Positions 10-23,159 of a stretch of DNA of 64,000 nt are shown in pieces. Position 1 is the stretch's first letter; each line of letters begins with the position of its first letter. Source of the DNA: Sulfolobus islandicus Y.N.15.51 (GTDB lineage Archaea; Thermoproteota; Thermoprotei_A; Sulfolobales; Sulfolobaceae); NCBI RefSeq assembly GCF_000022485.1, contig NC_012623.1, forward strand, positions 1,948,501-2,012,500. Reading direction: 5' to 3'. Made by a program: the position numbers and the translations under genes. The notes below the pieces were generated by a model that searched no databases, was not told the DNA's origin, and saw only the letters and a program-made list of their open reading frames with translations.

Positions 10-788
10 ATGATGATATGGCAATGCTCCTACAGAGATGTAGAAGCATACTATTACACGGACATTGTAGTAAGATGGTTTCTAGGAGAACGCAAGTCAA
101 AATCCGAAAACCACAGAAGGGCAAAGAAACTTAGGGGAGAAATAAAGAAAGCATTCAAGGAATACGCAAAAGAACTTGAGGAAAAGCTAAGCAAACTAGA
201 AAACTACTTGCCAAGTAGTGCCTTATACGGCAAAGTTAACAAACTCTGGGCAATAGATTCCAACATAATCGAAGTACCCTTCGGAAAGAGAAACAAGGAG
301 ACATTAAAGAAAAAGCTAGAACTCAACTTGAGACAAGGAAAGTTTAGGGAAGCAGCAAACTTAATTTACTACTATATGAGGGCTAAGATTCATCGTAGAT
401 TTAAGGGTGAGTTTGCGAAGAAGAGGGTAGGAGTTTCTTCGGCTTCAAGGTTTTATATGCTATTTCCCCAACCATGATTCTTCACGCAATTCAAGTTGAG
501 TTTGCAAACTTTCCCGATAATAAGGTTGGTTTTGGTATGAGTGGTTATAAGGTTGTTGATAGGGGTTTCTTGGGAATGCCCTCAACTTGGATAATTGGTT
601 TTTCTAGTTTTAGACGTTATGTTGAATTCTTTGGTATTTTCTTGAAGAGGTATTGGAGACCTTACGCTATTAACAAGGATATGGTTGAGGTTTTTGTTTA
701 CGTTATTGGAATAATTTACAATTCCTTGATTTACACTTCCGTGTTAGCAAAAGTTCCGCAAGAGGAATTTGTCAAACTCTCTAGTTAA
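10..788 (+). pseudogene. transposase-like remnant in two overlapping frames
   Basis: Two reading frames, 10-477 (155 codons) and 474-788 (104 codons), overlap as ATGA at 474-477. Neither gives a confident family hit by eye. The first has a basic, helical N-terminal half and an AIDSNIIEVP string that could hold the first Asp of a DDE transposase. The second ends in hydrophobic and RRY/KRYWRP-type segments such as close some IS5/IS4-like transposases. A long inverted repeat sits over the stop codon. I infer a truncated or frameshifted insertion-sequence gene whose 5' part may lie before the window. It could instead be an unrelated two-gene unit. Confidence 0.4.
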
Positions 789-810
789 CCCTAGGCTAGG
801 GTTAACTAGA
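780..810. repeat. perfect 14-bp inverted repeat, 3-nt loop
   Basis: Arms 780-793 and 797-810 (TCTAGTTAACCCTA and its complement) are separated by GGC and include the stop codon of the preceding ORF. It could be a terminator-like hairpin or the end of the insertion-sequence remnant. Confidence 0.7.
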
Positions 811-893
811 ATAATATGGGGTATGTTTGAAATTCATTTTTTCTCAACTATAAGTTATTTTATATTACAATAAAATATTAATCTTCCCTCATA

Positions 894-1883
894 TTGAAAG
901 ATATAATTGACTTCTATTCTCAACTAGTTATAATATTGTTTTTCTATCACATTATATTTATTGAATTATTTGCATTCTGGACACTCTCTCAAGGCCTCTT
1001 TCTAGTGTTGTCAGCAATTTTAGGGTATTTCCTTCACAATAGGTTATCCGTGAGAATAGTAAGTTTTGTAAACAACTGGATAAACTTACCTTTGATATTT
1101 CTCGTCACATATCTTCAGAGGGGTTTTGAGGTAAGTGACGCTAAGATTTTCCTAACCTCTGTAATTTATAATTTCTTAATGTTTGCGATAGTTTTATACT
1201 TAACCAGAGAAATCGAACCATTTAGTAGAGGGTCTGTTTTAATAAACTCAATCTTCATGAATACAATTAATTTACCTTTCTCAATACTCCTAGCGTTTAG
1301 GGGGAATTATGAAATCTCTGCAACGGTTGCAGTGGCGATGGCTACATTAAGGCTACCGATAGTGATGATAATTTTTACGTATTTAAACAAGGGTATAAGC
1401 GTGATACACAATACTACAAATAATTCAATAATAAGAACAAATCTTTCAAGATATCTCCCTGTAATAACTTTTCTAATAGGTGGTAGTTTACATTATGTTG
1501 TAGGCTCAGTTATAAACGTTGACATCGTTAATACAATAAATTTGATTCTCATCTTAATAGTACTTTATGAATTCGGTTATCAAATAAGAAGAGTAATTGG
1601 TGAAATGAGGATTAAAGATGTTACGTCAAAGCCTTACATGATAATTTATATATCAAGAATTCTTATTAGCCCAATCCTAATATTTCTTATCTTAATTTCT
1701 CTAGGTATCACTTCCAAGATAATTATCGAGCAAGTTATGGTAACAGCGATTATGGCTCCAGCAATAACAAACGTGGTTTGGGCTAGAGTTTATGGTTTTG
1801 GCACAGAAATCATAGTGAAATCCACCTTAATATTAACACCTATTAGTACAATAATTGCTATAATATTTCTTATATTATATTAA
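894..1883 (+). CDS. AEC-type (auxin efflux carrier/malonate) permease
   Basis: 329 residues, almost entirely hydrophobic, with about ten predicted membrane segments in two halves and a short charged link (RRVIGEMRIKDVTSKP) in the middle. The first half carries an N-x-x-x-LPFSILLAF-type stretch and the second an APAITNVVWAR stretch, in the places where AEC-family carriers have their conserved Asn/Pro motifs. This suggests a secondary transporter for an organic anion in the cytoplasmic membrane; the substrate cannot be read. The chosen start is a TTG about 25 bases behind the AT-rich TATTTTATATTAC, which fits leaderless transcription. It is a monocistronic unit. Another 10-TM secondary carrier family remains possible. 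Confidence 0.55.
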   Translation: MKDIIDFYSQLVIILFFYHIIFIELFAFWTLSQGLFLVLSAILGYFLHNRLSVRIVSFVNNWINLPLIFLVTYLQRGFEVSDAKIFLTSVIYNFLMFAIVLYLTREIEPFSRGSVLINSIFMNTINLPFSILLAFRGNYEISATVAVAMATLRLPIVMIIFTYLNKGISVIHNTTNNSIIRTNLSRYLPVITFLIGGSLHYVVGSVINVDIVNTINLILILIVLYEFGYQIRRVIGEMRIKDVTSKPYMIIYISRILISPILIFLILISLGITSKIIIEQVMVTAIMAPAITNVVWARVYGFGTEIIVKSTLILTPISTIIAIIFLILY

Positions 1884-19211: not shown

Positions 19212-19604
19212 CTAACGATGTCTCATAAAACAATATAAGTAACCTACAAGCATTGAGGTTAAAGCTAAGGAAAACTCAAACCCGTAAAGCATTACTTTTG
19301 TGAGCCACTCGTAGTCTGTTAACAAGTAACTCAAACCACCAAATCCAGCTATTCCAATGGATACCAAATTGCCTAAACCAATGAATTTGGGGAATAATAA
19401 ACCAGTCTTGTTAGCTAACATATAAAGGTAAATTCCAAAACCTCCAGTGATTCCAGCAAAGATAATGTGAAGTATCAAGATACTAGTTGACAAAGTGTCT
19501 TGAACAGTATCATACATTGCCCTAACTAGCCCAAATGAGAATGCCAAAAACATTATGATGATACTAAAAATTGAATATTTATAGATCTCTCGCATATTCG
19601 CCAA
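19212..19604 (-). CDS. four-helix membrane protein, unknown function
   Basis: 130 residues with four predicted membrane helices and a short positively charged C-terminus (CFMRHR). The second helix pair has Gly-rich packing (GITGGFGIYLYM, GIAGFGGLSYLL). No known motif is visible. Its 5' end overlaps the upstream 185-codon gene by 26 bases, which suggests a translationally coupled pair; a partner role in one membrane unit is inference. Confidence 0.5.
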   Translation of the reverse strand: MANMREIYKYSIFSIIIMFLAFSFGLVRAMYDTVQDTLSTSILILHIIFAGITGGFGIYLYMLANKTGLLFPKFIGLGNLVSIGIAGFGGLSYLLTDYEWLTKVMLYGFEFSLALTSMLVGYLYCFMRHR

Positions 19605-20136
19605 CTTTAATCACCTCAGACGACTTTCCAATTTCAGTCGTCTTTACTCTTAAAAATATAGAGGACTCGAGAAGATAGTATTGAATGTCCTCTAACAACT
19701 CATACCAAGCGATGTTGGGAATATCACTCCTTATTTTAATGTCTAACTCATGAGCAATTTTCTTCAATGATGGAACACATGAAAAAGTTGTAATAGAACA
19801 CCTATCACACTGATATGTAGCATCGTAATAGTTGAAATATATCAAATGTCTATCATTAGTGATATACATTATCCCCTCCTTCAAATTTATCCCTTTATTA
19901 TTTACCGTAAAGGGAAGTACTGCCTTAAAACCAATTGCATTGTCAATTAGTAACCCCATTCTCCTTAGCCTATCTACGATAAAGTAAAAATAACTCTTAC
20001 TGATCTCCCCATCCCTCCTATCACTGCTTAAAACCCTTAAGTAATCTTTTACCTTGCTGAAACTGTCATCCCTAAGTAATATAACGTCATCTGAAATTAT
20101 TGGCCTTGCAACATTATTGATCACAAGGAGACACAT
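19579..20136 (-). CDS. hypothetical protein with a Cys cluster
   Basis: 185 residues, soluble. A helical N-terminal half (FSKVKDYLRVL...DRLRRMGLLID) could be a winged-helix DNA-binding or dimerisation unit. The centre holds CDRC and a third Cys eight residues on (CDRCSITTFSC), which could bind a metal with another ligand. No family recognised. It overlaps the four-helix membrane protein gene by 26 bases. The ATG at 20136 follows AT-rich sequence without a ribosome site, so translation is probably leaderless. Confidence 0.45.
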   Translation of the reverse strand: MCLLVINNVARPIISDDVILLRDDSFSKVKDYLRVLSSDRRDGEISKSYFYFIVDRLRRMGLLIDNAIGFKAVLPFTVNNKGINLKEGIMYITNDRHLIYFNYYDATYQCDRCSITTFSCVPSLKKIAHELDIKIRSDIPNIAWYELLEDIQYYLLESSIFLRVKTTEIGKSSEVIKVGEYARDL

Positions 20137-20557: not shown

Positions 20558-21244
20558 TTATAAATTCTTAATTGTGATATCCCCGTGATATGGTATCAAT
20601 ACAGTATAGGGAAGGGATACTAAATAATTAAACGAGTTCACTGCAAAGTCGTAATTCCAAGAGAATATTCTAAGGGGTGGTGATAACGTATTTCTAACAT
20701 TCCTAATAGCATCACCAACTATCAAATACTTACCATCAAATAAGGCAATATGCCCCTTTGTATGCCCCGGTACATGTGTAACCTTAAACCCTCCCAACTC
20801 CTCACCGCCTTTTAATGCAACATCAACCTTAACTGATTCATAATGCAAATTGTTAATCCTCTCCATGGTCTTCTTAAAGATTGAAAACGAAACGCCCAAC
20901 TCATCACTATAAATTATGTTATATTTTGGAGGATTTTCCAAATTTTCTAACTCATCTACATGGGCATATATTTTAGCATCACTTATTCTCTTTATTGCCA
21001 TAGCGTTGCCGGCATGATCGTGATGCCAATGTGTTATTACGATATCCGAAATATCTTCTAGCGAATATCCCCATGTCTTAAGATAGAACTCAATCTGATC
21101 AAGGTATCCCGGTAAACCAGTATCAACAATCATTAATCCCCCACAAGGACCATTCTCTATAACGGATATATTGTGATTAAGTATCGTATCGAAAAATTCA
21201 GGCTCTAACAACTCCATTATCCTAACCTTACCGATTTTAACCAT
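20558..21244 (-). CDS. metallo-beta-lactamase-fold hydrolase
   Basis: 228 residues with a complete binuclear metal site: H72, H74, D76, H77 in THWHHDHAG, H161 in VPGHTKGH, D178 in GDAI and H220 in PYHGD. Glyoxalase II-like hydrolases, lactonases and the PQQ protein PqqB share this fold. It follows the radical SAM gene directly; the stop and start overlap as TAATG, so translation is coupled. Within the peptide/radical SAM locus I infer a role in processing the modified peptide or its product (hydrolysis, proteolysis or oxidation), by analogy with PqqB. A general thioesterase role is possible. Confidence 0.75.
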   Translation of the reverse strand: MVKIGKVRIMELLEPEFFDTILNHNISVIENGPCGGLMIVDTGLPGYLDQIEFYLKTWGYSLEDISDIVITHWHHDHAGNAMAIKRISDAKIYAHVDELENLENPPKYNIIYSDELGVSFSIFKKTMERINNLHYESVKVDVALKGGEELGGFKVTHVPGHTKGHIALFDGKYLIVGDAIRNVRNTLSPPLRIFSWNYDFAVNSFNYLVSLPYTVLIPYHGDITIKNL

Positions 21245-22428
21245 TAATCCATCACCAAACGTATTAATCTAACAACCTTTTCGTACGCTTCCCTCTTACA
21301 ATCGTCCCCATTAATGTTACTCAAAAATTTACAACCACCCATACACAAAGGTAGATATGGACACGATTTACACTTATCCTCAATTTTAACCTTCCACCAT
21401 AACGACTTGTTCGTTACTTTAACACTCCCATCCTCTTCCAATTTACCCTTAACGTAAAGCGGATTACCGGTGAAAGCCCAACAAGGGTAAATATTTCCCT
21501 CTGGATCAACTACAATATCTTCATTTGAATAGGCTACACAAAAACCTAGTCTAAATACGTCATGAGGAACTTCAAATCCATATTTTCTCGCAGTCTCCCA
21601 GAATTTCACTAAAACATCTCCTTCAGCCTTGCTGGATATTGTGAAATCCCACCACTCATTTCTGAACATGTTTGAATGAACCAAATGAGGGTCTAATCTC
21701 ACTTTATTTATCCCTTCCCTCTTCAACTCGTCCAATAGCTCCTCTATTTCGGTCAAGTTCTTTACATCAATGTTTATCCTCAATACTACTTTTATCAAAT
21801 CTTGTACCTCCTTTAGATTCTTCACTATTACATCGAATGAACCCTTACCTCTAACAAAGAACCTCCTCTTATCGTGAACTTCTTTTGGTCCGTCTAACGT
21901 TATTTGTGCATAAGTCAACCCTAGTGGAATTAGTCTTTCAGCTATTTTTCTAGTTAAAAGAGAACCGTTAGTCACTACACTGAACGAGTATTTTAAGTCA
22001 GATAATTCTCTCGATATCTCCTCTATTTTCCTAAGCTGTAGGAGTGGTTCTCCACCAAAGTAGGTTATCCTTACCTTCCTACCTCTCTCGTTTTTCCTAA
22101 TATAGTTTACGAAACCTCTTATAACCTTATCTGATACTGAAACGTTTTTCCTAAACCCTTTCTGGAAACAGTAAATACAATCGAAGTTGCAGTTATAAGT
22201 TAACACAAGAGTGGGTTCTAGAACGGGTTTTCTTAAAAATTTATCAATTTCCTCATCTAAATCCTCATCTGCAGCTGAAAAGCCTTCCTCTATTATATCC
22301 TTTAAATGTTCTGGTACAATCCCTTTCCTTAACTTTTCAATTTCCCATAAATTGAGCTTAATTGCGTATCCAGTGAGGGTATTGAAGAGGACATCTCCAA
22401 TAAAAAGATTAAACTTGGAGAGGGCCAT
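21244..22428 (-). CDS. radical SAM/SPASM peptide maturase
   Basis: 394 residues. An N-terminal domain of about 70 residues ([20 protein letters not shown]) looks like a small peptide-recognition unit. The radical SAM core starts with C80-x3-C84-x2-C87 for the SAM-bound [4Fe-4S] cluster and has YFGGEPLL at 123-130. The C-terminal SPASM domain shows C297, G311-x4-C316, then C353-x2-C356-x5-C362-x3-C366 and C377, a full set for two auxiliary clusters. Such enzymes cross-link or oxidise side chains of ribosomal peptides. It lies 12 bases after a 28-codon peptide gene and is coupled to a metallo-beta-lactamase-fold gene. An anaerobic sulfatase maturase is excluded by the lack of a sulfatase nearby. 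Confidence 0.8.
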
Positions 22429-22440
22429 GACTATTTGCCC

Positions 22441-22527
22441 TCAGTCTCCCCAGCTTGGAGAGTAACCACATCTACCATATTTCCTCTCTATTACAACTAC
22501 CTTTTTTGCTTGAAGAGTTGCCTCCAT
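22441..22527 (-). CDS. 28-residue putative RiPP precursor peptide
   Basis: A short ORF with ATG at 22527 and TGA at 22441-22443, 12 bases before the radical SAM gene. GGGTGG (22532-22537) sits four bases before the ATG, a strong Sulfolobus ribosome site, and a TATA-like CTTTTAAATATTA lies about 50 bases upstream. The N-terminal half is leader-like (MEATLQAKKVVVIERK) and the C-terminal end YGRCGYSPSWGD is rich in residues that radical SAM maturases modify (Cys, Tyr, Trp, Ser, Asp). GRC also occurs in one class of streptococcal radical SAM peptides; this may be coincidence. No other role for so short an ORF at this place is apparent. Confidence 0.65.
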   Translation of the reverse strand: MEATLQAKKVVVIERKYGRCGYSPSWGD

Positions 22528-22570
22528 TTTTCCACCCGTAAGGCTACATATGATTAATTACATTTAAACT

Positions 22571-22583
22571 TAATATTTAAAAG
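22571..22583 (-). promoter_or_regulatory. TATA-like box of the peptide/radical SAM operon
   Basis: On the minus strand this reads CTTTTAAATATTA. Its distance to the ATG (about 45-50 bases) predicts a leader of 20-25 bases, which contains the GGGTGG ribosome site. Confidence 0.5.
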
Positions 22584-22661
22584 AGGGCCATTTGCGCAAT
22601 TAACAGTATTTAGGCGGTATTATGAAGAACCATTTAAAAATCTAGAATATTCGACAATAAT

Positions 22662-23159
22662 ATGGGAAAAGGGCTTTTAAAAATAAAGGAATTGGAAGGA
22701 GAGGCGCTGTTCTTTCTAGACGAGAGTAGGATAGTCATTAGCACGTCAATTAGGAAGGTTTTGGCCAAGATTGGTAGTAAGCCAGTAATGCACGTTAATA
22801 TGGGTTTTTCTTCACTTCACGTTTTTCTCACTATAAACGCGTGGACTGGTGAAGTGGTTGTTGGTATTCTTAGGAGGACCAATTCTGAGTCTTTGAAGTA
22901 ATTCTTGAGGTACTTTAAGAGGCGTATAGGTAATGGAAGGGTTTACATGGTTATGGATAATTATTCTCCTCATAAAACCAAGGGTGCGCTTGAGGTTTGT
23001 AGTAGGAAGGGTATTTATCCCATATTTACTCCTCCTTATTCGCTTGAGCTTAATATGGCCGAGGCAGTCTTCAAGCCCTTCAAGGTATACATGAGTAATA
23101 AAGTTTCGCTCGATAGATGAGGTTGTAAATTGTATTGAACAGTTCTTTGAGGAAAAATA
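22662..23159 (+). pseudogene. IS630-family transposase remnant (ISC1048-like)
   Basis: The catalytic half of an IS630/Tc1-type DDE transposase: FFLDES holds the first Asp, MVMDN the second and PPYSLELNMAE the region of the final acidic residue. The N-terminal HTH part is missing. There is one in-frame TAA at 22899-22901 and a frameshift near 23117, after which IDEVVNCIEQFFEEK ends at 23159. It is clearly inactive. It lies just beyond the promoter of the peptide operon. Confidence 0.75.

Follow-up and report, generated by a model that had tools for sequence, protein, structure and literature searches.

RiPPs matured by radical SAM/SPASM enzymes are a known kind of system, and several described ones resemble the archaeal locus reported here in one respect or another. 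The operon for PQQ likewise combines a precursor of ~25 aa with a SPASM enzyme and a protein of the metallo-beta-lactamase (MBL) fold. The mycofactocin precursor MftA is, like ours, short, sparsely distributed across phyla and unaccompanied by a transporter, and Cys, Gly and Tyr all occur in its unvarying C-terminus (PMC3023750); an invariant C-terminus without transporters was the pattern behind the prediction of mycofactocin as a redox carrier (PMC3023750). The SCIFF maturase CteB shares with ours seven SPASM cysteines and, by prediction in our case, an RRE and a three-Cys auxiliary cluster, and geopeptide (TIGR04280) and CefB-type (NF038107) maturases share the combination of radical SAM/SPASM domains with an N-terminal leader-binding region (likewise predicted in ours). 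Few RiPPs have been identified in archaea (PMC12144867); a survey reported clusters in Thermoproteota and Thermoplasmatota and named rSAM-modified classes in general terms (PMC12144867), so automatic tools may have flagged the maturases considered here with the peptide left undescribed.

We analyzed a window of 64,000 nucleotides (the whole stretch of DNA under study) from Sulfolobus islandicus Y.N.15.51, in which a tiny gene, present in some heat- and acid-loving archaea, very probably encodes a precursor from which a small, chemically modified peptide, not described so far and perhaps a cofactor, is made. Our main reading, to which we give a probability of roughly 75%, is that the locus belongs to a new family of archaeal RiPPs, whose product probably carries a thioether-type cross-link at Cys and stays inside the cell; that the short ORF is the precursor and substrate of the neighbouring maturase is very likely. 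We found no prior record of the precursor family, its archaeal distribution or its gene set, which are absent from NCBIfam and Pfam and had no match in a literature search; subscription papers lay outside that search, and an earlier description is possible.

All genes of the locus lie on the minus strand (Table 1), where we located every element named in the original prediction: the 28-codon gene with its TATA-like box and GGGTGG site, the 12 bases between its TGA and the maturase ATG, and the TAATG overlap of the maturase stop with the start of the MBL gene. In Pfam searches the maturase scored 83 bits with Radical_SAM and weakly with SPASM, and the MBL protein, as had been proposed for the gene coupled to the maturase, scored 103 bits with Lactamase_B. 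Two close relatives have GGGTGG or GGGTGA at the ribosome-binding site of the peptide gene, and the nearest ~110 bp upstream of the peptide are almost identical in a close relative, with divergent DNA farther upstream. Right upstream of the promoter, at 22662-23120 on the plus strand, are two short ORFs that look like one transposase interrupted by a stop.

Table 1. Features of the peptide-maturase locus and associated genes (positions in the window unless a genome coordinate is given)
Feature	Position	Strand	Basis or remark
Peptide gene, 28 aa, MEATLQAKKVVVIERKYGRCGYSPSWGD	22527..22441	minus	read directly; 28 codons, TGA stop
Peptide parts: leader MEATLQAKKVVVIERKY and core GRCGYSPSWGD	within 22441..22527	minus	conservation across 19 loci
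Ribosome-binding site of peptide gene, GGGTGG	22537-22532	minus	read directly; 5-10 bases before ATG
TATA-like TTTAAA	22568-22563	minus	read directly; ~40 bases upstream of peptide gene
Radical SAM/SPASM maturase, 394 aa	22428..21244	minus	Pfam, NCBIfam
MBL-fold metallo-hydrolase, 228 aa, motif THWHHDH	21244..20558	minus	Pfam Lactamase_B
Candidate associated regulator, ~180 aa, winged-helix-like, N-terminal Met-Cys, CxxC-x4/5-C	20136..19582	minus	
U32-family protein of the window's genome	G000:C1:1691759-1692895		away from operon

Of 31 genomes from the window's family, 17 have an orthologous maturase: 15 with an intact locus, one with a 117-aa remnant (G179) and one with a gene cut by a contig end (G201). 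At all 15 intact loci the peptide lies directly upstream of the maturase. In the Thermoplasmata, the maturase occurs in 4 of 300 genomes of one MAG's class, and all four have the peptide beside it, ending CRCGYSPSWGN, so that all 19 intact loci, spread over two archaeal phyla, show the linkage. When the DNA pattern of the core was searched in the 31 family genomes, we obtained one match each in 15, always just upstream of the maturase, and none in the others; the reversed control pattern gave 0 matches in the same genomes. The claim that peptide and maturase are an archaeal pair of the RiPP kind, so far undescribed, was thus supported, with the short ORF kept beside every intact homologous maturase. 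The remnant in G179 (C19; L104, L124), which is C-terminal and without a peptide, sits at the position of a relative's intact gene and shows that the system has decayed in that lineage.

The 19 precursors are 24-28 aa long and share the C-terminal motif R-C-[G/N]-Y-S-P-S-W-G-[D/E/Q/N], the final residue always being one of those four. Residues -10 to -2 are invariant at the protein level save for G/N at one position, with synonymous codon changes free; in these nine core codons pS is 0.78 versus a pN of 0.11, and pN in the leader is 0.32. The pattern across these 19 sequences indicates that the core is under protein-level purifying selection. The leader is variable and contains a basic/hydrophobic segment, K-[VIL]-[VIL]-x-[ILV]-[E/Q/D]-R, and the precursor has a single Cys (two in the Thermoplasmata). 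In comparison with the two nearest relatives, DNA identity is 90-94% in the peptide gene, 70-75% in the upstream intergenic region and 42% in the 12-nt gap. Conserved Cys, Tyr and Trp behind a variable leader, which the original prediction expected of short ORFs beside homologous maturases, were found at every intact locus. It had also feared that the maturase might be translated from a longer start covering the peptide. Such an extension, or a fusion of the two, is excluded by the in-frame stop and by variation among genomes in the stop-to-start gap (12, 5, 4, 1, 0 or -1 nt) and in the stop codon (TGA, TAG or TAA), and because spacing and stop codon vary the peptide can be taken as a separate product.

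The best NCBIfam models for the maturase are geopeptide (242 bits), CefB (220), TIGR04463 (168), Clo7bot (158) and PapB (153), all peptide maturases and all below their cut-offs; for the first two, the closest curated models, the scores are far under the cut-offs of 400 and 600, and the core and gene partners differ from those here. The SCIFF model TIGR03974 gives 95 bits against a cut-off of 425, and where a SCIFF precursor has six Cys in forty-five residues, ours has one. The Thermoplasmata maturases are 51-57% identical to that of the window (three aligned). The Cx3Cx2C radical SAM motif at 80-87 (C80, C84 and C87) and the SPASM cysteines C297, C316, C353, C356, C362, C366 and C377 are invariant in 18 orthologues. 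Accordingly, the earlier statement that all auxiliary Cys are present holds for the common seven-Cys motif and fails in comparison with eight-Cys enzymes such as anSME and SuiB, one cluster having, by the usual motif assignment, only three Cys. Judging from SPASM motif spacing and the anSME/CteB pattern, C353, C356, C362 and C377 should be the AuxII ligands and C297, C316 and C366 those of AuxI, where one iron should then be free. The AuxI cluster is bound by four Cys in anSME and SuiB and by three in CteB, and in ranthipeptide synthases the open AuxI site takes part in substrate binding (PMC10452713).

The AlphaFold2 model of the maturase (pLDDT 85.5) begins with three strands followed by three helices, the arrangement of the RRE fold (PMC8326336), and residues ~7-65 are predicted to form an RRE-like fold for precursor recognition. 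Its closest solved structure is CteB (Z 27.6, rmsd 4.4, 362 residues aligned from residue 4), which is also found by sequence (E 1.5e-18); anSME structures rank second, and PqqE matches with a Z of 14.2. As a modelling device only, we also read the peptide TGA as Trp, making peptide and enzyme one chain; in this model only leader residues 8-12 exceed a pLDDT of 50 and the rest of the peptide is disordered, and the strand formed by residues 10-12 agrees, at low confidence, with leader docking. The rank of anSME, together with a weak likeness to sulfatase maturases and QhpD, would be expected if the maturase acted on a larger protein, as anSME or QhpD do, and the peptide were incidental. With a one-to-one linkage of peptide and maturase at 19 intact loci, an RRE-like N-terminal domain and a conserved core, we consider this extremely improbable. 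One scan of viral contigs revealed no viral relatives, and plasmid-borne orthologues were discarded as a possibility, the plasmid matches being distant maturases only (<33% identity).

The order of peptide, maturase and MBL protein had been likened to the PQQ gene set. This comparison stands for gene order and logic and is not supported for homology: the maturase is nearest to CteB and geopeptide types in structure and sequence, well ahead of PqqE, and the PqqE model TIGR02109 (cut-off 381) is absent from its 25 best NCBIfam models, hence under ~60 bits. For the MBL protein, the 25 top-scoring NCBIfam models and the listed solved-structure matches are of subclass B3, glyoxalase-II and lactonase types, the nearest being B3 and glyoxalase-II; PqqB is not among them. 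No adjacent PqqC or PqqD gene was seen, and the Glu-x3-Tyr pair of PqqA is not conserved in the 19 precursors, in agreement with the earlier view that the peptide is not PqqA. Mycofactocin differs as well. An orthologue (L109) scores 63 bits with the MftC model TIGR03962 against a cut-off of 265, neither a glycosyltransferase nor a creatininase-type peptidase was seen adjacent, and the core, unlike that of MftA, has Pro and Trp and its acidic or amide last residue (D, E, Q or N); searched against NCBIfam (E up to 10) and Pfam, the precursor matched no family, MftA included.

We propose a pathway whose start, a 24-28-aa precursor made directly upstream of its own maturase, comes from comparative genomics. 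The leader segment is predicted to dock as a beta-strand on the RRE-like winged helix, offering the core [G/C]RC[G/N]YSPSWG[D/E/Q/N] to the active site. A 5'-deoxyadenosyl radical would then take a hydrogen from a core residue, to which the invariant Cys, held on the three-Cys auxiliary cluster as in CteB and ranthipeptide synthases, would be joined. By analogy with such enzymes a Cys-based cross-link in the core is rather likely. It would most likely be a thioether, the main alternative being that Tyr or Trp is linked through a C-C or C-O bond. The thioether is proposed by analogy; no acceptor position is evident, and the spacing typical of SCIFF or PapA is lacking. The MBL enzyme and the U32-family protein would next process the cross-linked peptide by leader removal, product hydrolysis or aromatic-ring oxygenation.

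Within the family, the MBL gene is found in 17 of 17 maturase-positive and 6 of 14 maturase-negative genomes (Fisher p 3.8e-4, relatedness ignored), and a U32-family gene in 17 of 17 and 8 of 14, respectively (Fisher p 4e-3, relatedness again ignored). The HxHxDH motif and later metal ligands of the MBL protein are kept in 22 homologues. The U32 partner belongs, like TrhP and UbiU, to Pfam Peptidase_U32 and has conserved Cys, but scores only 32.5 bits with the TrhP model (cut-off 534) and 19 bits with that of UbiU (cut-off 440). In most genomes the two genes are paired. A U32-MBL pair lies divergently beside peptide and maturase in five genomes of genus g6 and in the 4 Thermoplasmata MAGs; in three genomes, the window's and two close relatives, the MBL gene is alone in the operon with U32 elsewhere, and in G188 it stands alone, divergent to peptide and maturase. 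Repeated association in differing arrangements argues for a functional link, and on balance we think that both proteins act in the same pathway as the maturase.

Six family genomes have U32-MBL with neither peptide nor maturase, often followed by AhbD/AhbC-like genes, and the main role of the pair may therefore lie elsewhere. The radical SAM enzyme could accordingly mature the peptide while MBL and U32 serve another pathway (e.g. heme or tetrapyrrole) and are neighbours by convenience. We see this as a real but less favoured possibility, given that the MBL gene is translationally coupled to the window maturase and adjacent in three arrangements, and that in the Thermoplasmata U32-MBL faces peptide and maturase with no AhbC/AhbD alongside. 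Separately, at L109:3935-6102, L160, L163, L164 and L165, which represent several genera, U32-MBL is followed by AhbD-like and then AhbC-like radical SAM genes, a possible link of U32/MBL to heme synthesis.

A homologue of the winged-helix/Cys protein adjoins maturase, MBL or U32 in many genomes. It had no Pfam family over cut-off, and it is likely, not certain, to be associated with the system, possibly as a regulator; a role as a system-specific part is weakened by the family being multi-copy and present in 30 of 31 family genomes. Both this neighbour and the U32 partner lie outside the region that the original prediction covered.

Returning to the modified peptide, its product would probably remain intracellular, as a small molecule with a cofactor-like or regulatory role, because the core is undiversified and no exporter is conserved nearby: in 12 sampled neighbourhoods no conserved exporter or membrane gene stood beside the pair. 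Secretion as a bioactive peptide, whether an archaeocin-like agent or a signal, would suit the patchy occurrence within the family, and antimicrobials are common among SPASM-matured peptides; those same exporter-free neighbourhoods and a core invariant in two phyla, where bioactive cores usually diversify, make it rather unlikely. That the intracellular product we favour is cofactor-like is a tentative suggestion made by analogy, a PQQ/mycofactocin-like cofactor being plausible. About half of the family genomes are without the system, which is therefore accessory, unlike an essential cofactor. The most specific version, in which the peptide would give aerobic thermoacidophilic archaea a new, ribosomally derived cofactor for redox chemistry or catalysis, with a radical cross-linked core tailored by U32 (oxygen-independent) and MBL enzymes, we hold to be doubtful. 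A cofactor would take its place next to PQQ and mycofactocin; any other product would still provide a SPASM enzyme whose substrate has one Cys, and with it a means of asking how C-S or C-C bonds are chosen. Either way the system offers a concrete short target, with a substrate of 24-28 residues, an enzyme that should be heat-stable and few candidate tailoring enzymes.

As the core has Cys and Tyr, we also weighed a link to caldariellaquinone, a tyrosine-derived benzothiophene quinone found in this archaeal group. The idea was dropped, since so central a quinone would be expected in all family genomes and many of them, including the close relatives G191-G193, are without the system.

Conservation that is strongest at the C-terminus, by the stop and immediately ahead of the downstream gene, could also mark the short ORF as a regulatory upstream peptide (an arrest peptide or attenuator) governing the maturase. 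We judge this highly unlikely: a RiPP-type maturase with an RRE-like domain would have no substrate, the stop-to-start gap or overlap is not constant, and distant maturases have short upstream ORFs of their own, with similar leaders and different, unrelated Cys-containing cores. For the precursor role that we prefer, the similar leaders support recognition of the leader through the N-terminal domain, and it is the core that sets this subfamily apart. Examples include a Nitrospirae TIGR04280-type locus with the upstream ORF MKNRIVVLKK...CCIGAYVPYLWG and, in three genomes of another family within the same taxonomic order, ORFs such as ...KKIIILEK...NFCGPYCSLVCG... upstream of distant maturases.

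Several further loci came to light in this comparison. In family f4 of that same order (L101, L102 and L103), conserved precursors of the form ...I[IV][IV]LE[KR]...NFCG[PT][YF]C..VCG... lie beside maturases of ~440-464 aa in a neighbourhood (clusters c19-c24) common to three genomes, and make up a second family of conserved precursors in archaea. A short ORF from a different family of the phylum, MKFVPLQKGSTPEPGTRPLTCCGSNFHFGTYCTPVKGPTQIISDIKALRED (L170:1331-1486), stops immediately ahead of a maturase with 36% identity. In a Halothermothrix MAG (L144, ~765-1404, reverse strand) five short ORFs in tandem, which have leaders resembling MKLLVLR and contain several Cys, precede a geopeptide/CefB-like maturase, and in a Thermococcus MAG (L146, L149) Cys-rich repeat peptides, e.g. 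CGGEGCALQGCGAQGC, lie upstream of geopeptide-like maturases.
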